From positions 1 to 47,279 of IMG/VR virus record IMGVR_UViG_3300023184_000209: DNA of 47,279 nucleotides. One strand, written 5' to 3'. Below are positions 9,185 through 41,370 of the stretch, piece by piece; positions within the stretch are counted from its first letter, which is position 1, and each line of letters begins with the position of its first letter. The stretch is from a virus. The translations under genes were made by a program, and so were the position numbers. The notes under the pieces are model-generated. The model was given only the letters and a program-made list of their open reading frames with translations. It searched no databases and was not told where the DNA came from.

Positions 9185-9403
9185 GTGGCACAACTTATAA
9201 AAGCTAGTGATATCAAGGTTATTACAAAAGATGGCGAATGTAAGCTGTCTATAAGTATAGATTTAAATATAAATTTAAACACTTCTGGCGTAACTGTTGG
9301 TGTTCAAAATGCAAAAGTTGAGCAAAAAAAAGAAGAAAGTGCAATGTGGGAAGTTCCAGATTTTGCACAGATGCCAAAATTAAATTTTGGAAAAAAAGCA
9401 TAG
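9185..9403 (+). CDS. Small protein upstream of actin-like gene, unknown
   Basis: A 72-aa protein from GTG 9185, with AAGAGG five bases upstream. The N-terminal two thirds alternate hydrophobic and polar residues (small beta domain), followed by a charged linker and a conserved-looking tail, WEVPDFAQMPKLNF. It ends 25 bases before the actin-like ATPase on the same strand. Its position suggests a partner of that ATPase, but this is only contextual. Confidence 0.5.
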   Translation: MAQLIKASDIKVITKDGECKLSISIDLNINLNTSGVTVGVQNAKVEQKKEESAMWEVPDFAQMPKLNFGKKA

Positions 9404-9428
9404 AAACACAAAAGGAAAGGCAAATAAA

Positions 9429-10436
9429 ATGGCAAGTTGTGGCTTTGATGTGGGTACTTATAATCTGGTTTCATGTAGAAGAGATGGAAACGGCAACTTT
9501 GTAAATAAAAGAGAAGTTAATGCATTTTTAGAATTACCATTAGAAAATAGGTTTGTTTTCGACATGATGAAACAAGCTGGTGTTCCTCTTATAGAAAGAG
9601 AAAATGTAGCATATGCTCTTGGTGAGGCTGCTGTAAATATGGCCTATACCATGAGCCAAATTGAGCTTAAAAGGCCTATGTCTGGTGGCTGTGTGAATCC
9701 AAAAGAAAGAGATGCTTTTCAAATTCTTTCTATCATGATTCATGGTCTTTTAGATGGAGTAAAACAGAATAATGAAACTGTATATTACTGTGTTCCAGCA
9801 AATGCCATTAATGAAGATACAGATGCCGATTATCACCAGAAGGTTTTAGAGGCAATATTCAAAGCATATAGATCCGAAGAAGGATATACAGTTAATGCAT
9901 ACCCAATTAACGAAGCTCTTGCTTTGGTCTATGCAGAATTAGGCAAAAAAGCTTATACTGGTATTGGAATTTCATTTGGAGCAGGGATGGTAAATCTATG
10001 CTACTCAATGTATGGCAATCCTATTTTCAAATTTGCAATTGTAAATAGTGGAGATTGGATTGATAAACAAGCAGCAAAAGCAACTGGCGAAAGTCCAACA
10101 TTCATCAATAAAGAAAAGACCAAAGTCGATCTGAGTGCGATTCCAACTAATTTAGTTGAAAGAGCAATTCAAACACAATATAGAATTATGATTGAGCATA
10201 CAATAAATGAAATTAAAAAAGGATTATCTACTGCTAATAAAGCTATTCACACTGATACGCCAGTTGATATTGTCATTGCTGGTGGAACTTCATCCCCACC
10301 TGGCTTTGATAAATTGTTCAGAGAAACCTTAATGCAAGCAAAACTTAACATTAAGATTGGCGAAGTCATTAGACCAGAAGATCCTTTATTTAGTGTTGCC
10401 AGAGGCTGTTTAATTGCTGCCGAAACCGCTAGGTAA
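9429..10436 (+). CDS. Actin-like ATPase (ParM/MreB superfamily)
   Basis: A 335-aa protein starting at ATG 9429, preceded by AAAGGAAAGG. Actin/Hsp70-fold motifs are visible in order: phosphate-1 GFDVGTYNL at 5-13, phosphate-2 GIGISFGAGMVNLCYS at 178-193, and an adenosine-type motif VIAGGTSSPPGF at 282-293. Length fits ParM/MreB-type filament proteins. Phage relatives form filaments used for plasmid-like partition or for positioning replicating DNA or virions in the cell. The small gene before it and the duplicated protein after it may be accessories. Filament formation is inferred from family. Confidence 0.75.
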   Translation: MASCGFDVGTYNLVSCRRDGNGNFVNKREVNAFLELPLENRFVFDMMKQAGVPLIERENVAYALGEAAVNMAYTMSQIELKRPMSGGCVNPKERDAFQILSIMIHGLLDGVKQNNETVYYCVPANAINEDTDADYHQKVLEAIFKAYRSEEGYTVNAYPINEALALVYAELGKKAYTGIGISFGAGMVNLCYSMYGNPIFKFAIVNSGDWIDKQAAKATGESPTFINKEKTKVDLSAIPTNLVERAIQTQYRIMIEHTINEIKKGLSTANKAIHTDTPVDIVIAGGTSSPPGFDKLFRETLMQAKLNIKIGEVIRPEDPLFSVARGCLIAAETAR

Positions 10437-10445
10437 TTTTAAAAA

Positions 10446-10465
10446 GAAAGAAAGAAAGAAAGAAA
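10446..10465 (+). repeat. (GAAA)5 microsatellite over a ribosome-binding region
   Basis: Five perfect GAAA units run directly into the ATG at 10465, the last A being the first base of the start codon. The repeat occupies the place of the Shine-Dalgarno sequence, so slippage could change spacing and translation of the downstream gene. Confidence 0.85.
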
Positions 10466-10923
10466 TGAGTAAGCAAAAAAATGTAAGTGATTTGGGAACT
10501 GCCGCATATTTACTTATGCATGATTATAAGGTTATAGGAAGAAAAGCAAAAGACATTTACTTTTTAACCACAGATGAAGAAAATCCTGATAAATTTGATC
10601 AAATCACATTAGATTATCTCTCTAGTGAATTTCACAGATTTGATGCTTGTATAATGTCTCTTAAAAAAATTGGAGATTATCATTTTCAGTCAAAAAATCA
10701 AAGATTTGTAACAGATCTTGGTGCAGCAGCATATATTTTAATGCACAAATACAAAGTTCTTGGCAAAAAAGGTAAAGCTATCTATTTCGAAATAGAAGAA
10801 GAAGGTTGCGATAAATTTGATGAACTTAGTTTGGAATACCTATCAAGCGACTTCCATAGATTTGATTCTTGTCTTATGTCTTTGAAAAAAATCAATGAAT
10901 ATATGAGCAATCAAATAAATTGA
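10465..10923 (+). CDS. Tandem DUF5659-like protein
   Basis: A 152-aa protein made of two similar halves: residues about 7-70 and 80-145 share V-[ST]-D-L-G-[TA]-A-A-Y-[LI]-L-M-H-x-Y-K-V and a terminal LSSxFHRFDxCxMSLKKI. Each half resembles DUF5659, a small domain seen in phages and bacteria, without known function to me. The duplication is clear at protein level but not at DNA level, so it is old. It lies directly downstream of the actin-like gene (28-base gap), start chosen after the GAAA tract. Confidence 0.6.
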   Translation: MSKQKNVSDLGTAAYLLMHDYKVIGRKAKDIYFLTTDEENPDKFDQITLDYLSSEFHRFDACIMSLKKIGDYHFQSKNQRFVTDLGAAAYILMHKYKVLGKKGKAIYFEIEEEGCDKFDELSLEYLSSDFHRFDSCLMSLKKINEYMSNQIN

Positions 10924-12239: not shown

Positions 12240-12851
12240 TCAATTGTCAGAGCCAGTAATTTTTGATGGAAGCTTAGTTGGTGGTAATTCGTAAAATCTA
12301 AAAATCTGTTCTTGACTCAAACTACCATTCCCATTTTTTTTATTTGGCTTATTTTGTGTAGAATTTTCAGATTCTCCACCATCAGCATTCGCTTCTCCAA
12401 CAAGGGTTTTTCCAGACATAATCAATTGCATGGCCTTAGCTGCCTGTTTATGTAATTCTTCTGTATATGGCAATCTATAAGCTCTAGGCTCTGAATTATT
12501 TTTCTTTGAAGAAAATGGCTTTAAAAATAGATTGGTGTCAATCTCCTTGACATTATTATCATCATCGACTTCAGTGGCCCAAATGAAAATATTGCCAAGA
12601 TGTTTAGAATTAGTTTTAGATGGCTCTTGCACCAAAAGCCAATGAATCACTGTTTTATTTGGAAATTTAGATTCTGTTGCCCAACCACTTAAATCACTAA
12701 GTGAAAACCACATAAGAAAACTAAAATATAAAGACAAAAATACAAACACAAGCTTAAAATACCAAGCTCCTCTGGAATACAATATAATCCATAAGCCTAT
12801 AGATGCTAAAATAATGAATGTTAAGGGAATTCCAATTGCATTTATGTTCAT
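12240..12851 (-). CDS. Membrane protein of motor-like cassette
   Basis: A 203-aa protein with two N-terminal membrane segments (about 5-25 and 31-53) and a polar domain of about 150 residues with a Ser/Asn/Gly/Lys-rich linker near 155-175. It is the last of three consecutive minus-strand membrane genes, seven bases after the ExbD-like gene, and is presumably part of the same complex. By analogy with Ton/Tol and Mot systems it could be the effector or linker protein, but no family is recognised. Confidence 0.55.
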   Translation of the reverse strand: MNINAIGIPLTFIILASIGLWIILYSRGAWYFKLVFVFLSLYFSFLMWFSLSDLSGWATESKFPNKTVIHWLLVQEPSKTNSKHLGNIFIWATEVDDDNNVKEIDTNLFLKPFSSKKNNSEPRAYRLPYTEELHKQAAKAMQLIMSGKTLVGEANADGGESENSTQNKPNKKNGNGSLSQEQIFRFYELPPTKLPSKITGSDN

Positions 12852-12858
12852 TTTTTCC

Positions 12859-13503
12859 TCAAGGTGTTTCTGGCGGTATTATTGGTACATTTGCTGGTTG
12901 TTGGCCTTGTTTATTTCTTATTCCCAAAAGCTTCTTTTCTAAATCAGAAACACTTTCGAGATCACCTTTAGAATTTATTTTAAATCTAAATGCTGTTTTT
13001 TCATCGCCAACTTTATTTAGTGTTATCTTTCTTTGTACCAAAACCGAATAAGTAGGACTTACTTTTTCAAGTTGAACTGTAACCTCAGTTGGAACTTGAT
13101 GATTAAAGTTATATGCGTGAATATTCACACAATACTCCCCAACAGTAGTACCACGCAAGGTTATAATTTCTTTATTTTCGTTATATGTTATTTTACCAAA
13201 ACGAGTATTTATAGTATCATTCTTGTGACCCAAATCATCTCTATCCAAATGCATCAACCCATCTTCTCTACGCACAAAACATACCAAATTTCCTTCTGGA
13301 TCTTCTACATATGCATCAACATCATTGTCTAATTCTTTTGGCCATGTAAAGGTTATGAGATATGAAGCTTTAACATCTGGTGTTTTTTTATTTTGATTTA
13401 TAAGTGCGAAAGCCAAAACAAAAAGACAAGCAAAAGCTAAAAGCATATTAAAGAGCAAATCTAAAAAAGATGTATTGCAGCTATAGTTTTTTCTTATTTT
13501 CAT
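12859..13503 (-). CDS. ExbD/TolR/MotB-like protein with DUF2135-like domain
   Basis: A 214-aa protein with a short basic N-terminus, one membrane helix (about 12-36) and a long extracytoplasmic domain. The helix starts with SFLDLLFNMLLAF, where the single Asp (residue 15) sits as the conserved proton-carrying Asp does in ExbD, TolR and MotB. The soluble part (about 55-130) contains DVDAYVEDPEGNL and LDRDDLGH, resembling DUF2135-type beta domains. The C-terminus is Pro-rich. The gene lies two bases after a MotA/TolQ/ExbB-like gene, the usual partner. Energising by ion flow is inferred. Confidence 0.6.
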   Translation of the reverse strand: MKIRKNYSCNTSFLDLLFNMLLAFACLFVLAFALINQNKKTPDVKASYLITFTWPKELDNDVDAYVEDPEGNLVCFVRREDGLMHLDRDDLGHKNDTINTRFGKITYNENKEIITLRGTTVGEYCVNIHAYNFNHQVPTEVTVQLEKVSPTYSVLVQRKITLNKVGDEKTAFRFKINSKGDLESVSDLEKKLLGIRNKQGQQPANVPIIPPETP

Positions 13504-13505
13504 AT

Positions 13506-14024
13506 TTAATCTTTTTTATTTTTAAGAGCATTTTCAAGTTTATCAAGTTCTATAGAAACCAAAAAAAATTGTAATTTCAAAAAAGAACCACAAACTAAAC
13601 CAACTATAGTTGTATACAATGCTGTTGCCATGCTTTGACCTAATTGTGATAATAATTGTTGTACTGTTTGTATGTTTTGTATGTCCAATGTATTAAAACC
13701 AGATAACATCATTATAAATCCAACTATAGTTCCTATCATTCCAAGAGTTAAGCACAATTCACTTGTAAACCATCCTATTTCGGCCTTATTCACATAATCA
13801 TTTAATGCTACTTCTCCAAATTTTTTACCATTTTTACAAATAAGATAAGAAATGTTTCCGCAAAATATAGTGCATATTAAAAATACAATATAAGTAAAAT
13901 AACTTATATAACTACTGTCCTTGACCCAAATTTCTTTTGCGAAACCAGCATATGATGTGAATATAGATAGAACACAAATTATAGTAAATATCAACCACCA
14001 CTGTAAGAATAAAGTATATTTCAT
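13506..14024 (-). CDS. MotA/TolQ/ExbB-like channel protein
   Basis: A 172-aa protein with four predicted membrane segments (about 5-28, 40-63, 88-110, 128-155) and a lysine-rich tail. The last two segments carry the family signature: SELCLTLGMIGTIVGFIMML and LGQSMATALYTTIVGLVCG, matching the L-G-x-x-G-T-V-x-G and A-L-x-T-T-x-x-G blocks of ExbB/TolQ/MotA. Its start overlaps the previous gene's stop (ATGA at 14021-14024), indicating translational coupling. Such proteins form pentameric ion channels with an ExbD/MotB-type partner, which is encoded next. A phage copy is unusual. Confidence 0.65.
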   Translation of the reverse strand: MKYTLFLQWWLIFTIICVLSIFTSYAGFAKEIWVKDSSYISYFTYIVFLICTIFCGNISYLICKNGKKFGEVALNDYVNKAEIGWFTSELCLTLGMIGTIVGFIMMLSGFNTLDIQNIQTVQQLLSQLGQSMATALYTTIVGLVCGSFLKLQFFLVSIELDKLENALKNKKD

Positions 14025-14407
14025 GTTTTTCCTTTTTGTAGTTTCGCAGTTAGCTCCGCTAAGTCCTCTATATTTATGAATTGATCTTCATTTGTTTCAC
14101 TGGTTTTTTTAGGATTTTTCATATTCTCTCTAACTTCCTCAATTATCTTAATGTGTTCTGGATTTTGCTGATCAAGAACTTGTTCTTCAATAATGCCAAT
14201 AACCTGAGAAAAAAAATAGAAGTTTTTACAAGCTGTCAATGCGTGAGTGGTAAAGATTCCATCATCATCAATTTCATCAACAACACCAGTGAAAAAATCT
14301 GCAAATTGAGCATCATTAAAGTCTCTCTTTGCTATAGGATGAGTCAGAATTGTGCAAATTTTACCTTGGAATTTTTGCTGTAATTTTTTTACTGTTGTTA
14401 TTTTCAT
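14021..14407 (-). CDS. 128-aa protein with possible SH3/Sm-like barrel, unknown
   Basis: A soluble protein. Residues about 10-75 alternate strands around FTGVVDEIDDDGIFTTH and FYFFSQVIGIIEEQ, which looks like a small Sm/SH3-type barrel; residues 80-128 are a charged helical tail. It sits between primase (22-base gap) and the channel gene (four-base overlap). It may link replication-region expression with the membrane cassette simply by operon structure. Function unknown. Confidence 0.5.
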   Translation of the reverse strand: MKITTVKKLQQKFQGKICTILTHPIAKRDFNDAQFADFFTGVVDEIDDDGIFTTHALTACKNFYFFSQVIGIIEEQVLDQQNPEHIKIIEEVRENMKNPKKTSETNEDQFINIEDLAELTAKLQKGKT

Positions 14408-14429: not shown

Positions 14430-15470
14430 TTATAGAAAACCAAGAATATCACCAGACATTCCATGTGGTGCCAAAAAATCAACAGCTTTTTGTTTTTGTT
14501 TTATCCAAGCATTTAAAATTACTGCTCCAACTTCAATATACATCTCATTCCAGTCATTATACTGTTCTGGTGGTCTTACAAACATTAGCTTGTCATTAGA
14601 ATTTATGTTCTTGCTTAAAGACAACATATTCATCATTTTAGCACTACCCTGAGAACCTGCCTTGTCTCTATCTAAACAAATAACAACCTTATAATCAGAC
14701 AGCATAATTGCTTGTTTTTCGCTCATATTCTTGCCACCACACGCAGCAGCACTCAATTCGCATAATTTCAAGCTTATTGCATTAAATTCGCCTTCGCAAA
14801 GGTATAGTGTTTTTCCTTTTTGTGGCCAATTACCAGCCATATAAATTACATCTTCTTTTCCAACACCACATTCTTTTGGTGGCCCTAAATATCTAAGTTT
14901 TGCTTTAGGACTAATATGCCTTGAGTTCCAATAAATCAATCTTCCATCACGACCATAATAGGGAATGACAATCCTAAACTTATATGGCTGTTCCATACAA
15001 ACATAAAGACCATCTATTGGTATTTTCCTACGAGACAAATAATCTTCTGCATGCTTTCTGAACCAATTATTTGTTCCAAGATCAGATATCAAATTAGAAC
15101 CATAAGGTAATTGTAAACCAGATTTTTGCTTAGGCTCTTCTATAACTTCAGATTGATCATTAAAAAATTCATCCAATTTCTTTTCTAATTGTGCTATTGT
15201 CTGATATCCAAGCAAAGTAGATAAAGCTTCTTCACGAGAACACTTATCGACTAATTGAACAAGTTTTACCAAAGAACCCTTTTGATCAGTCTTCCAACAA
15301 TGATAAACACCAAAATCTCTAGATTTCTTGCCACCAGTTGGATTACACCACAAGTGATGTTTTGTATCATCTGAAAATATACTATTTAAATGAATCTCGT
15401 TACCTTTAACAATCACATCGCTAAATCTAGATTCTGCCCATTCAACAAATTTGTCAAAATTTATTGCCAT
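14430..15470 (-). CDS. DnaG-type primase (zinc-binding and TOPRIM domains)
   Basis: A 346-aa protein. The N-terminus (about 38-75) has a cysteine/histidine pattern HHLWCNP...VYHCWK typical of a primase zinc-binding region, though only two cysteines are obvious. The TOPRIM domain follows with LYLCEGEFNAISL (near 223-235) and VICLDRDKAGSQG (near 262-274), the Glu and D-x-D motifs that bind metal. It synthesises RNA primers for lagging-strand replication. There is no helicase motif, so it is a stand-alone phage primase of shorter than bacterial length. It heads the minus-strand block that includes the motor-like cassette. Confidence 0.75.
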   Translation of the reverse strand: MAINFDKFVEWAESRFSDVIVKGNEIHLNSIFSDDTKHHLWCNPTGGKKSRDFGVYHCWKTDQKGSLVKLVQLVDKCSREEALSTLLGYQTIAQLEKKLDEFFNDQSEVIEEPKQKSGLQLPYGSNLISDLGTNNWFRKHAEDYLSRRKIPIDGLYVCMEQPYKFRIVIPYYGRDGRLIYWNSRHISPKAKLRYLGPPKECGVGKEDVIYMAGNWPQKGKTLYLCEGEFNAISLKLCELSAAACGGKNMSEKQAIMLSDYKVVICLDRDKAGSQGSAKMMNMLSLSKNINSNDKLMFVRPPEQYNDWNEMYIEVGAVILNAWIKQKQKAVDFLAPHGMSGDILGFL

Positions 15471-15509: not shown

Positions 15510-16268
15510 ATGAACATTGAACATATCTCGGTATCTAGAAAACAGTGCTTCGATACTTGTCATGCCCAATACAAATACAGGTATCATTTGAAAATTATAT
15601 CAAATGAACCAGTTGCTGACCACTTCACATATGGAAAAATTGTTCATAAAGTTGCAGAACATTATGTGATGGAAAAAGGTAAAAAACCAATAGAAGAAAT
15701 TGCTTCAGAAGTTTTGACTGGCAAAATCATGTTGGAACAGGACAATCCTTCACCACCATTGCCTTCCCAATACAAGAAAAAATTACCAATTCATTTGGCA
15801 AATGTCAAAACAATTACCGATAGAATTGGTTTTGATGGCGAATTAGAGTGGGAATTTAATTATGATATTGATCCGCCAAATAATAAAAAAATAAAAGGAT
15901 TTATTGATCGACTTATAATTCGTGGAGATAAATTCTTTATTCTTGATTACAAAACCACGAAACAAGGAATGTGGCGAAAAAATAAAAGTAATATAGTAAA
16001 AGACCTACAATTAAGAACATATGGAAAAATAATTCAAAATCACTTTGGTGCAAAAGCAGAAAACATCAAGGCAGCTTTGTTTTATCTAGAAGGATCTGAA
16101 ATAGTATCGACTGGATTTACACAAGAAAGTCTTGATTCGGCACAACAAGAACTTATAGAAACTTATGATCGCATAGTTTCCTCTGATCCATCTTTAGTTG
16201 TTGGATCAGTAGGAAACCATTGTAGATTTTGTGATTATAGAAAGGTTTGTACTTTTTATAAAAATTAG
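15510..16268 (+). CDS. Cas4/RecB-like PD-(D/E)XK nuclease with Fe-S-type cysteines
   Basis: A 252-aa protein from ATG 15510, preceded by GCGGAG; the open frame before it overlaps primase and is ignored. It has Q-x-x-x-C-x-x-x-C near the N-terminus (Cys 13, 17), GKIVHKVAEH (the RecB helical histidine motif), GFIDRL and FILDYKTTK (the D and D-x-K catalytic core), and a C-terminal cluster C238-x2-C241-x5-C247. One N-terminal plus three C-terminal cysteines is the Cas4/AddB arrangement that holds a 4Fe-4S cluster. It likely acts as a 5'-3' exonuclease in replication or recombination. It is divergent to primase. Confidence 0.75.
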   Translation: MNIEHISVSRKQCFDTCHAQYKYRYHLKIISNEPVADHFTYGKIVHKVAEHYVMEKGKKPIEEIASEVLTGKIMLEQDNPSPPLPSQYKKKLPIHLANVKTITDRIGFDGELEWEFNYDIDPPNNKKIKGFIDRLIIRGDKFFILDYKTTKQGMWRKNKSNIVKDLQLRTYGKIIQNHFGAKAENIKAALFYLEGSEIVSTGFTQESLDSAQQELIETYDRIVSSDPSLVVGSVGNHCRFCDYRKVCTFYKN

Positions 16269-17305
16269 TCACGAATGACTACGCCAGCAAGTACCTTTAG
16301 CTCATTAAAAGTTTCATCATCATAAAACATAGATGCAGCTTGTAATTGCGGAGTCGTTGGTGCTTGTTGCTGTCCTGCTGCTGGTGCTGGTGCTTGTTGC
16401 TGCCCTGCCACTTGTGGTGCTGCTTTTTGCTGTACTGCTGGTGCTGCTGCTTGTTTATTCCCCATAGCAGCTTGTGTCGCTGGACTAAATGGTGGTTTAA
16501 TATCAATTTCACCTCTAGCAATCTTACCTGCAACATCTGCTACTACTTTTTTGTCAATTACAGGCATTTCTACTCTTGCTGGACACCATGATTCTACTGG
16601 TGTCGCACCCACTTTATCAGCATTAGCCTTTAGAATGTTTAAGCCTTTCTCGAAATCACCTTGACCAAATAGAGTTATGCGTTTTTGAAGTTCTTCCCAT
16701 GTATATCCAGGAGCGTTAGGCGACCCGGTTTTTTCATCCAAATCAGGCGAATCTGGAGATTTCCCAGTTTGTTTTGCAACATCAATAATATTTTTTTGAA
16801 TATTATTTCCATTAAAATCCTTTATACTTCCACTGCCGCCTTGACCGCCTGAATTGCCTTTAATATCATTGGCTTTAGTCCATACATTTAAAGCAGAAAT
16901 AAGTTCTGGGCCTGGTAAATTTATTTGTGTTGCAGTTATATTTGCAGTTGGATCTACCAGCATTGTAGATGCCCATCTGTGATGACCATCGACAATAAAA
17001 TTATCTTTTGACATTATTGATTTTAAATCGCCACCAACATCATAGTCGCCACCAAAAGGTTTAGTCATTAGAGCCATATTAAAAGCTTTTACAAGTATAA
17101 TTTCGCTTTGCGATGGTTTAAGTTGATTGGCTGCTGCCGATCCTTTTCCCATTAGTGCTACATCATCTTGTTTGTCGTTATCTTCTTGTCCAGAACCAAC
17201 AGCAGCTTTGGCCAAATTTGGATCAATTTTACTTAATACCAACGGATCTTTTTGTCCTAGTGTATCTTCCTTTACTTGATTCCAAAACTCTAAAAATGAT
17301 TTCAT
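16265..17305 (-). CDS. ParB-like (DGHHR) protein with capsid-targeting-like N-terminus
   Basis: A 346-aa protein from ATG 17305, chosen because AGGAG lies five bases upstream. Residues 1-10 (MKSFLEFWNQ) resemble the T4 internal-protein targeting peptide. The ParB/Srx-like core (about 60-135) contains FIVDGHHRWAS. Residues 145-165 are Gly-rich, and the C-terminal region about 285-330 is a Gln/Ala/Pro-rich flexible linker before a short hydrophobic-charged end. It overlaps the convergent nuclease gene by four bases. It is paralogous in its core to the gene upstream. The role could be DNA binding or nucleotide hydrolysis after ejection; no direct evidence. Confidence 0.6.
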   Translation of the reverse strand: MKSFLEFWNQVKEDTLGQKDPLVLSKIDPNLAKAAVGSGQEDNDKQDDVALMGKGSAAANQLKPSQSEIILVKAFNMALMTKPFGGDYDVGGDLKSIMSKDNFIVDGHHRWASTMLVDPTANITATQINLPGPELISALNVWTKANDIKGNSGGQGGSGSIKDFNGNNIQKNIIDVAKQTGKSPDSPDLDEKTGSPNAPGYTWEELQKRITLFGQGDFEKGLNILKANADKVGATPVESWCPARVEMPVIDKKVVADVAGKIARGEIDIKPPFSPATQAAMGNKQAAAPAVQQKAAPQVAGQQQAPAPAAGQQQAPTTPQLQAASMFYDDETFNELKVLAGVVIRD

Positions 17306-17346
17306 AATGACTCCTGTTATTGATTTATTATATATAATATAACTTT

Positions 17347-18192
17347 TTAATTTTCTGCTAATAATCCAGATAAAGTTAACCAATCTGGGATGACATTTAT
17401 TTTTCCTTGTTCTAAGTCTTTTTCAAATCCTTTGGCAGCACCACCAGTTTGAGGCATTAAACCTCTTGATTCTTTTCCTAAATTGTATTTTCTTATTTTC
17501 AATACATTATTCCAAAGAAAATCAACCACATCATCAACATTTTTGGCCAAATTCTTATCAATAAATATTTGTAAGGATTTTTCTGTAATTATATTTTTAA
17601 TATGGTTTTCAAATGATTCGTAATCTATGGTGAATAGATTAGTCTCATCTCCAGAAGCTAAAGGAACACGACTTAATTTTGCAGCAACAGCTAAATGTGC
17701 TATTTTTAATCCTCGTAAATATGAATTTAAATTTTCAATTATCAAACAAGGAACTTCTGATTGTGGATTGAATAGAAAATATTGTGACCATCTATGATGA
17801 CCATCAAGAATGAAAACACTACCATTCACCATACAAGTGACCACATAGCCCTTTACTTGTGCATTACCATCAAGGAATTGTGCAAGGTTGCCAAATCTAT
17901 CAGTTAGTCCATTGTCTAAAGATGATTCAAGAAAGATTTCATCTTGGGTTGGAATTAAATCCATTACAGATATATCTTTTCTTGTGATTTTCAAAGCATC
18001 ATTCTCATCGCCAGATTTTAAAAAATCAACAAAATTAGGATTAGAAATAAATTGCTTAAGGTTTGATACGAAATTTCCAAGATCAAGATTATCAGACATC
18101 ATTTTTCTTAATGTTGATTGAAGTTCGGTATATTCATCAGAAGATAAATTGTTATTTTCTTTATAATCTAAAAATTCTAAAAATGTTATCAT
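17347..18192 (-). CDS. Second ParB-like (DGHHR) protein with targeting-like N-terminus
   Basis: A 281-aa protein starting MITFLEFLDYKE. A helical region precedes a ParB/Srx-like core around 120-150 with VFILDGHHRWSQYF, followed by a helical C-terminal half with MPQTGGAAKGFEKDLEQGKINVIP, a segment that matches the spacing of the downstream paralogue's conserved ARGEIDIKPP part. The two proteins share N-terminal motif, DGHHRW core and this C-terminal segment, so they probably arose by duplication and diverged. It lies nine bases after the secreted protease gene in the same direction. Confidence 0.6.
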   Translation of the reverse strand: MITFLEFLDYKENNNLSSDEYTELQSTLRKMMSDNLDLGNFVSNLKQFISNPNFVDFLKSGDENDALKITRKDISVMDLIPTQDEIFLESSLDNGLTDRFGNLAQFLDGNAQVKGYVVTCMVNGSVFILDGHHRWSQYFLFNPQSEVPCLIIENLNSYLRGLKIAHLAVAAKLSRVPLASGDETNLFTIDYESFENHIKNIITEKSLQIFIDKNLAKNVDDVVDFLWNNVLKIRKYNLGKESRGLMPQTGGAAKGFEKDLEQGKINVIPDWLTLSGLLAEN

Positions 18193-39840: not shown

Positions 39841-41370
39841 GTGAACATCGAAGAATTTAAAACTAAGTATGCCGCCTTCAAAGATACCGACAAGATTCAA
39901 ATCCAATGTGATCATCATAATCACATTCCTTTTGGAGAAATAATTACAATAGGCAAACAACCAGCAAAGAGAAACATCTTGAAAAGCGGAGGCAAGGAAT
40001 TCATTTGTCGCCAATGCTTTATGAAATACAATAACCCTGTAAACAAGATCGGAGAAAAAAGACAAGATGATTCCATCATTGAAGTATTTTGTCCTTGCCA
40101 AGAGCATAATGGCGAACCATCACGCCAAATGAAAAAAAGTTGCTACTACGGATCAATGGAAACGCCTTATCTGCAAATTTGTGGAAGCTGTGTGCAAAAA
40201 GGCAGAGAAATAAGCGATGAACAAAAAGAAAGAATTCGACTTTCTCTTACTGGTATTAAGCGTAGTGATGAGTTTAAAGAAAAACTTAGCGTTTATATGA
40301 AAAACAATCCAGAAGGAATCGCAAGAGCAAAGTCTAATTTAATTCCAGGTTCTGGTGGGGGCTGGAACGAAGGTTTAAATTTATCAGAAGAAACAAAACA
40401 AAAAATGTCTGAATCTCATATGGGCAAGAAATTTTCCGAAGAACATTGTCAAAAAATTTCTGAAGGGAGAAAAAAAATGTTAGAAGAAACCGGAGGCTTC
40501 ACTCCAGAACACCGAATGAAGCTATCACGGGCAACGATCAGACAGTATCAGAATGGTTTTGACCCCAAGACCCACCATATTAGGGGAGTACACCATTCAA
40601 CCAAGATACCATCGGGGCAAGGGGTATTTAGGTCGTCATACGAGAAGAAAGCCTTCATGATACTGGATAATGACGAATCCGTTGTGTCTTACGAGATCGA
40701 AAAAATAACGATTAAGTACTTCAATCCAATCAAGAAGATCGATTCATTATATGTGATAGACATTTTAGTGAAACACAAAGACGGAACATCGAAATTGATT
40801 GAAGTAAAACCTCAATCTTGGCTTCTCGACCCAGTTATACAAGCAAAGATCGAAGCTGGAAAAATAAAGGCAGCAGAAATCGGCTTGCCATTTGAAGTTT
40901 GGACAGAAATGAATCTTTTTGGTCATGTGTATAACAAAAAAAATATGAAATTGTTCATGGATAAAATATTAAGTGAAGTCGATAAAAACAGAAGGATCAA
41001 GATATCGTCCGAGAAATCAAAAAGATATTACCACACCCATATTGCCAACGACAAAATTACCTTATTTTGCTCCTTCTGCAACGAGGAACATACTCCGCTA
41101 AGACTTACGCACGATAAGAATATAGCCAGAAATGGTCGCTACATATGTGAGCGTGAGGGAGGTCATATAGCGGGAAGTAGACCGAAGCCACATTTGCAAA
41201 AAAACAATCCTCATGTAGCTGACGGAAAGAAAGAATGCGTTAACTGTTTACAAATATTGGAATTTAAACTTTTCTCGCCCGACAATACGAAAAGAGATGG
41301 TCTTTGCGGAAGGTGCAAGGAATGCAGATCTAAAAAAGCAAAAGAAAAATACAATAAAAAAACTAAATAA
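39841..41370 (+). CDS. NUMOD3 + PD-(D/E)XK homing-type endonuclease
   Basis: A 509-aa protein from GTG 39841 after AAGGAGAAAAATC. In order: an N-terminal His/Cys-rich region (CDHHNH, CRQC, CPCQEH, CGSC); three NUMOD3-like modules around 130-230 (SDEQKERIRLSLTG, SEETKQKMSESHMG, TPEHRMKLS); a TnsA/PD-(D/E)XK nuclease around 260-360 with RSSYEKKAF, YVIDILVKHKDG and LIEVKPQSW as the E, D and E-x-K motifs; and a C-terminal Cys-rich region (CNEEH, CVNC, CGRCKECR). It is a free-standing mobile gene inserted downstream of the capsid gene. Confidence 0.7.
   Translation: MNIEEFKTKYAAFKDTDKIQIQCDHHNHIPFGEIITIGKQPAKRNILKSGGKEFICRQCFMKYNNPVNKIGEKRQDDSIIEVFCPCQEHNGEPSRQMKKSCYYGSMETPYLQICGSCVQKGREISDEQKERIRLSLTGIKRSDEFKEKLSVYMKNNPEGIARAKSNLIPGSGGGWNEGLNLSEETKQKMSESHMGKKFSEEHCQKISEGRKKMLEETGGFTPEHRMKLSRATIRQYQNGFDPKTHHIRGVHHSTKIPSGQGVFRSSYEKKAFMILDNDESVVSYEIEKITIKYFNPIKKIDSLYVIDILVKHKDGTSKLIEVKPQSWLLDPVIQAKIEAGKIKAAEIGLPFEVWTEMNLFGHVYNKKNMKLFMDKILSEVDKNRRIKISSEKSKRYYHTHIANDKITLFCSFCNEEHTPLRLTHDKNIARNGRYICEREGGHIAGSRPKPHLQKNNPHVADGKKECVNCLQILEFKLFSPDNTKRDGLCGRCKECRSKKAKEKYNKKTK

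Follow-up and report, generated by a model that had tools for sequence, protein, structure and literature searches.

A conserved three-gene phage cassette resembling ion-driven inner-membrane motors, with a DUF2135-like domain and a third subunit

What does a phage do with the parts of an ion-driven membrane motor? This question is raised by three adjacent genes on a 47,279-base viral contig, IMG/VR record IMGVR_UViG_3300023184_000209, which was analysed over its whole length and is called the window below. Known roles of motors of this general kind range from flagellar motility and nutrient uptake to cell division and gliding, with defence as a more remote case; Exb/Tol-type motors carry varied extra domains, and Zorya is a remote homologue (PMC12505986).

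Results

The window encodes a T4-type portal protein (phrog_213, E 6.6e-75), a T4-type major head protein (phrog_138, E 6.4e-84) and a terminase (phrog_2, E 3.6e-43); we take all three PHROGs to be of the T4 type. The cassette is thus borne by a phage, as a first-pass annotation had claimed, and the three consecutive minus-strand open reading frames that it had listed between 12240 and 14024 were found exactly there. Gene B (13506..14024, minus strand) encodes 172 amino acids, gene D (12859..13503, minus strand) 214 and gene T (12240..12851, minus strand) 203. They follow a Toprim primase gene identified with Pfam (14430..15470, minus strand) and a gene for a 128-amino-acid protein (14021..14407, minus strand), so that the order on this strand is primase, 128-aa gene, B, D, T. 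Spacing is tight, with a 4-base overlap before the start of B, a gap of 2 bases between B and D, and a gap of 7 between D and T. The 128-aa protein matched no Pfam family above cut-off and no PHROG; its family is present in 8 of 65 phage loci. The primase upstream in the same gene run suggests that the trio is expressed together with DNA replication genes. A promoter scan returned 26 sites against 18.9 expected, and the accompanying terminator scan found none.

Further features were noted elsewhere in the window. A Volactin (actin-like) gene lies at 9387-10436 on the plus strand (PF25216, E 8.1e-71), and its family occurs near the cassette in 5 of the 65 phage loci. The 169-aa product of 10414-10923 (plus strand) consists of two similar halves, an internal duplication read from the translation. 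At 39841-41370 (plus strand), a single open reading frame matches, in separate parts, families of head-closure proteins, homing endonucleases and endonuclease VII; this is the pattern that a mobile endonuclease lodged within or next to a head-closure gene would give. The adjacent genes at 16265-17383 and 17347-18192 (both minus strand) share a D-G-H-H-R-W motif, and the latter matched no Pfam family.

Gene B encodes a MotA/TolQ/ExbB-type membrane protein. Hydropathy indicated about four helices, and residues 90-148 matched Pfam MotA_ExbB (PF01618) above its cut-off (33.9 bits vs 22.9, E 3e-8). The same family was matched at E<=1 by all 12 aligned B members searched, with a best value of 8.3e-9. 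The original assignment of B was upheld, as was the profile match expected of it. Against solved structures, a profile of 85 B rows found MotA (8gqy, E 2.6e-5), TolQ (E 2.3e-4) and, weakly, ZorA (E 0.035-0.046); a 12-row profile placed MotA (3.7e-4) and ZorA (6.1e-4) close together, with TolQ lower (0.05). The best match in PADLOC was ZorA2 (E 7.7e-9). In total, six PADLOC ZorA models of 461-683 positions were matched, always within B residues 40-170. Helices 2 and 3 of B are separated by at most 26 residues according to hydropathy.

B lies outside the sampled TolQ/ExbB clade. In a quick tree with long branches, which held 31 of the 85 B rows and only 7 MotA and 2 long ExbB rows, 28 TolQ/ExbB rows stood on one side of a branch with none of the 31 B rows among them (SH-aLRT 99); the kinds of reference sequence were named by eye and three badly picked reference ORFs were dropped. 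Monophyly of all B was not rejected (p-AU 0.56). Two residues of B are invariant in all 85 rows, Asp36 (codon 13917..13919, minus strand) and Thr139 (codon 13608..13610, minus strand). The latter fell on a Thr in the final helix of TolQ, at the second Thr position of 'ATAIGL'. In Exb/Tol/Mot motors, a Thr of the ring and an Asp of the partner protein line the ion path.

Gene D combines a single ExbD/MotB/ZorB-like helix with a DUF2135-like, predicted periplasmic beta-sandwich. Hydropathy found one helix, and the structure model (mean pLDDT 89.8) comprised a helix at residues 10-37 followed by the sandwich. At the start of the helix lies Asp15 (codon 13459..13461, minus strand), a candidate ion-binding residue, which is Asp in 86 of 86 aligned members and is present in each of the 65 phage copies examined (63 alignment rows and 2 loci). 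D had been described as an ExbD/MotB-type protein with a conserved membrane Asp. The single helix and the Asp of the aligned members bore this out, but 10 of 15 bacterial loci fetched after a profile search carry Val at this position, and the expected family match failed: Pfam ExbD/TolR (PF02472) gave nothing at E<=1 for the D of the window and 11 relatives. Only the helix weakly resembles ExbD or ZorB. Its profile aligned with that of ExbD in register, Asp on Asp, at a probability of 9, which is not significant, and PADLOC ZorB1 matched it at E 0.004.

The periplasmic part of D (residues 45-188; 12940..13371, minus strand) had been read as a DUF2135-like domain in place of a peptidoglycan-binding OmpA domain. 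Pfam itself returned only chance-like hits at E<=1: DUF2135 was matched in none of 12 D members, and no OmpA domain was found in the D of the window. When residues 44-192 of the 86-row D alignment were compared with 15 DUF2135 (PF09906) proteins by hhalign, the probability was 95.5 (E 1.5e-8) and the score 54.4, against a maximum of 17.4 in 20 column-shuffled controls. Both parts of the earlier reading thus stand. The corresponding comparison with 25 TerD (PF02342) proteins gave a probability of 1.5 and a score of 19.4, with a maximum of 18.5 in 20 shuffled controls. Fold comparison with VIA ranked 3ibz first (Z 11.5 over 145 residues, 4.4 A), and further matches included 2qz7 (9.8) and 2kxt (9.2). 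Chains titled TerD or tellurium occupied rows 1, 4 and 6 of this list, and others without such titles scored in the same range (2qng 10.2, 9a6r 9.8, 7jtk 9.5; next row 6.1). Foldseek returned nothing for D at E<=0.001. Since the DUF2135 profile score exceeds that of the shuffles and the likeness to TerD is one of fold only, we describe it as a DUF2135-like domain whose fold is TerD-like.

A role of D in tellurium resistance was considered and rejected, because the likeness to TerD came from VIA alone and the profile test was no better than chance. Ten residues of the domain are invariant in 86 rows (Trp54, Asp61, Asp63, Leu86, Arg88, Asp89, Asp90, Gly92, Glu112 and Arg117), and two of its fold neighbours, 2kxt and 2lge, bear calcium in their titles. 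From the acidic residues of this set (Asp61, Asp63, Asp89, Asp90, Glu112) and the calcium-titled neighbours we would guess that the domain could bind metal. Neither D nor T matched a curated family above its own cut-off in Pfam, PHROGs, NCBIfam or PADLOC; phrog_1735, of unknown function, matched 4 of 12 D proteins (best E 3.2e-6).

T is a partner as conserved as B and D, which the first-pass annotation had overlooked, as it had the wide spread of the trio. It had been described as a two-helix membrane protein, and both hydropathy and the structure model (pLDDT 82.9) agree, the model showing a hairpin of helices 3-25 and 30-54 and a small alpha/beta domain. The loop between the helices is charged, and Lys33 within it is near-invariant (81 of 90 rows), which by the positive-inside rule would place the alpha/beta domain in the periplasm. 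The family consensus contains a conserved P-R-x-Y-x-L-P-Y segment. Foldseek found no solved relative of T at E<=0.001, and the best VIA match (Z 8.0) covered the helix hairpin only. Weak sequence matches to a Mediator subunit (E 0.08) and SurA (E 0.3-1.4) were discarded as chance.

The trio is widespread, occurring in many viral contigs, in named phages and on some Pseudomonadota chromosomes. Pattern-based scans of viral contigs gave 178 matches, 167 of them D relatives, and 80 of these relatives were retained; in bacterial genomes, 34 of 46 matches were D relatives. The non-redundant set comprised 86 D loci, 63 from phages (the window, 6 annotated phages and 56 IMG/VR contigs) and 23 from bacteria. 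B, D and T stood in this order on one strand in 84 of the 86, directly adjacent in 78 and with an inserted gene or gap in 6; the two remaining loci are truncated by a contig end and have no B. The genes of the window are under purifying selection, with dN/dS of 0.07-0.25 in six of nine comparisons with estimable dS. Given this constancy of order and this selection, B, D and T form one unit whose conservation goes well beyond chance. Among 36 longer viral contigs (near-copies included), 14 had a match to the T4-type capsid profile, which hit none of 14 control genomes, and 17 to the terminase profile, which also hit 11 of the controls. One or the other was present in 21 contigs, in two of them weakly (E 8.5e-4 and 9.2e-5). 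As the other 15 had neither, some of them may be fragments, may stem from other phages or may not be viral.

We then compared the trio with known systems. Like TolQR and ExbBD, it pairs a PF01618 ring-type protein with a single-helix partner that has a membrane Asp, and the last-helix Thr aligns with that of TolQ; unlike them, its B falls outside their sampled clade, its D carries a DUF2135-like domain and lacks an ExbD match, and it has an extra subunit, T. No TolA, TonB, TolB or Pal was detected by Pfam among ten window proteins scanned. The MotAB flagellar stator resembles the trio in the about four helices of its ring protein, and MotA 8gqy was the best match of the larger B profile, but the B of the window is only 172 aa long with a short spacing of helices 2 and 3, and D has no OmpA match. 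DUF2135 proteins are similar to D by hhalign and differ in that the domain of D is joined to an ExbD-like helix and escapes direct detection by Pfam.

An analogy with Zorya had also been drawn. It finds some backing in the PADLOC matches of B to ZorA2 and of the D helix to ZorB1. However, B lacks the long cytoplasmic tail of ZorA, D lacks the OmpA domain of ZorB, and a scan of 10 neighbours turned up no ZorC/ZorD or ZorE at E<=0.01. The trio is not Zorya, and the comparison stays an analogy. A ZorA2 search of 299 genomes gave no match and was uninformative on the presence of Zorya in hosts.

In viral contigs, primase, RNase H and sigma factor families recur near the trio. Among the 65 non-redundant phage loci, the neighbour families, each labelled according to a single member matched in Pfam or, for DnaK, by eye, included GDP-mannose dehydratase (14 loci), ClpP (11), primase (8), RNase H (7), SbmA/BacA (4), ClpS (4), subtilase (4) and DnaK (3). 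The SbmA/BacA-type transporter gene lies beside the trio or one gene away in L011 (2839-3855; PF05992, E 1.3e-73) and, as judged by clustering, in L068, L083 and L090. L068 and L083 belong to contigs with terminase and T4-type capsid matches, and in L068, L083 and L090 genes of the DnaK, Hsp20 and ClpS types, the first two named by eye, cluster with the trio. A subtilase-family gene adjoins T in four viral loci (Pfam-checked in one). Upstream of B, a Trypsin_2 protease gene with a signal-like start, as judged by eye, was found in 4 of 4 inspected phages of the 16-3 type, next to it in three of them and separated from it by a 44-aa ORF in 16-3. Together, these two kinds of protease beside the trio point to extracytoplasmic work.

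Named carriers came from a search of 50,697 phage records, in which the D of the window retrieved 26 records and each of three distant viral-contig queries 27. All 27 are named after Rhizobium or Sinorhizobium, and phages of other hosts were absent. The trait therefore seems to follow the host. Counted by name, the records represent 19 phages with genomes of 59 to 171 kb, some assigned to the Pootjesviridae and others carrying no family name. The whole trio was present in all 8 phages inspected (16-3, RHph_TM3_3_14B, RHph_X2_25, NV1.1.1, RHph_I1_18, RHph_N3_19, RHph_I46 and P10VF), annotated as hypothetical or by number only. In Pootjesviridae it is flanked, according to the annotation, by topoisomerase, late sigma factor and gp46/47-type genes.

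Bacterial copies have another setting. Of 49 bacterial loci, counted with near-copies, 25 had a PQQ-dependent dehydrogenase gene in the stretch fetched and 21 a lipoprotein-like gene, its lipoprotein start judged by eye; the two members of the latter that were scanned matched DUF3108_like, one of them below cut-off. D occurred in 16 of 398 Pseudomonadota genomes, the centre genome included. A strong PQQ-dehydrogenase match was found in 15 of these 16 versus 152 of all 398 (Fisher P=3.6e-6, or 9.0e-6 without the centre genome, both ignoring kinship). No PQQ-dehydrogenase match was found in any of 101 viral loci, the window and near-copies included. In an unrooted tree of D, the bacterial copies formed one group opposite all phage copies (100/100).

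Ten of the 16 genomes belong to the group with Val in place of Asp15, and in none of these ten does a PQQ dehydrogenase lie near the trio. In Val-type D, Lys also replaces an Asn four residues on, and the Thr motif of B is kept in 10 of 10. The Asp is thus either dispensable in some members, or these copies conduct no ions; they may be differently driven or idle, and provide a natural control. Judged by eye, 9 of these ten loci (L224-L233) have a sensor kinase-like gene nearby and 8 a response regulator-like one.

Discussion

With middling confidence, we propose that the trio represents a subfamily of its own among the ion-driven '5:2'-type inner-membrane motors, one that acts at the periplasmic side in the course of infection and would there remodel or guard the host envelope. 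B would form the ring, presumably a pentamer, and the helices of D, presumably two, its axle. Asp15 of D and Thr139 of B may line the ion path, as their conservation suggests. Ion flow would then move D, and the DUF2135-like domain together with the periplasmic domain of T would pass force to a target in the periplasm or outer membrane. The phage would make this motor along with its replication genes, so that it would be active in the course of infection and not at the time of lysis, a timing favoured by the replication genes around the trio in the window and in Pootjesviridae. The likeliest job would be to remodel or guard the envelope, by superinfection exclusion or envelope upkeep in preference to lysis. 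Several findings speak against the proposal: Val replaces the Asp in 10 of the 15 later bacterial loci, D has no Pfam ExbD match and its helix aligns with ExbD only below significance, and a lysozyme gene near the trio in two phages would suit lysis. We consider exclusion and support of the host about equally likely, and lysis less so.

Superinfection exclusion, in which the motor would alter the envelope and so block adsorption or injection by a second phage, is possible, though we hold it only tentatively. That 27 of 27 D-bearing phage records are rhizobial is what one would expect if the trait were bound to a single type of host and exchanged among its phages. In phage 16-3, the trio lies about 4 kb past immXu, and the protease genes near it fit such a role. 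On the other hand, searches of Pfam, PHROGs, PADLOC and NCBIfam revealed no likeness to a known exclusion protein, and many chromosomal copies sit near PQQ dehydrogenases. This latter association suggests a metabolic rather than an antiviral role.

A comparably tentative alternative follows from the bacterial copies: the motor could supply the energy for taking up or assembling a cofactor, metal or enzyme of the periplasm, and by carrying it the phage would keep its host productive. The enrichment of PQQ-dependent dehydrogenases, both near the trio and across D-bearing genomes, is consistent with this, as are the calcium-titled fold neighbours of the D domain and the SbmA/BacA-type transporter gene near the trio in four viral loci, Pfam-checked in one. 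But that enrichment has no counterpart in the viral loci, and the Fisher test takes no account of kinship, with 10 of the 16 genomes belonging to the Asp-to-Val group that has no such dehydrogenase near the trio.

Control of lysis, in which the complex would conduct ions, run down the gradient and set the moment of lysis as a holin does, is improbable. Two 16-3-type phages do have a lysozyme gene whose end lies about 3.5 kb ahead of B, but in the window and in Pootjesviridae the trio keeps company with replication and transcription genes, two conserved periplasmic domains exceed what a holin needs, and bacterial copies would have no use for lysis. It is most improbable that the trio is a decoy which poisons host ZorAB through mixed assembly: the PADLOC matches to ZorA2 and, weakly, ZorB1 and the 12-row B profile, with ZorA near MotA and better than TolQ, speak for it, but the 85-row profile ranks MotA and TolQ above ZorA, a decoy needs neither the conserved T nor the DUF2135-like domain, and the trio is also found on bacterial chromosomes.

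Our literature search, in which subscription journals are thinly covered so that absence is no proof, brought up no report of a phage motor like the trio among the matches listed, and within the same coverage nothing on DUF2135 or on ExbD with DUF2135. None of the words searched occurs in the text of PMC10460002, on AP-16-3, a relative of 16-3.

Returning to the motor proposed above, its carriage by phages would be a new use for motors of this general kind. The proposal is testable in cultured carriers, including 16-3 of rhizobia, with Asp15 as a one-residue control, and the bacterial copies offer an independent handle on function via PQQ-dependent oxidation. If the trio drives exclusion or envelope takeover, the phage would be using the gradient of its host in a novel way. 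More broadly, though we put this forward with considerable reserve, phages of several kinds may possess and operate a distinct class of ion-driven rotary motor, marked by a DUF2135-like head on the axle and by a third subunit, that does mechanical work on the host envelope, and the chromosomal copies may be a phage motor tamed by bacteria, one branch of which lacks the usual Asp.
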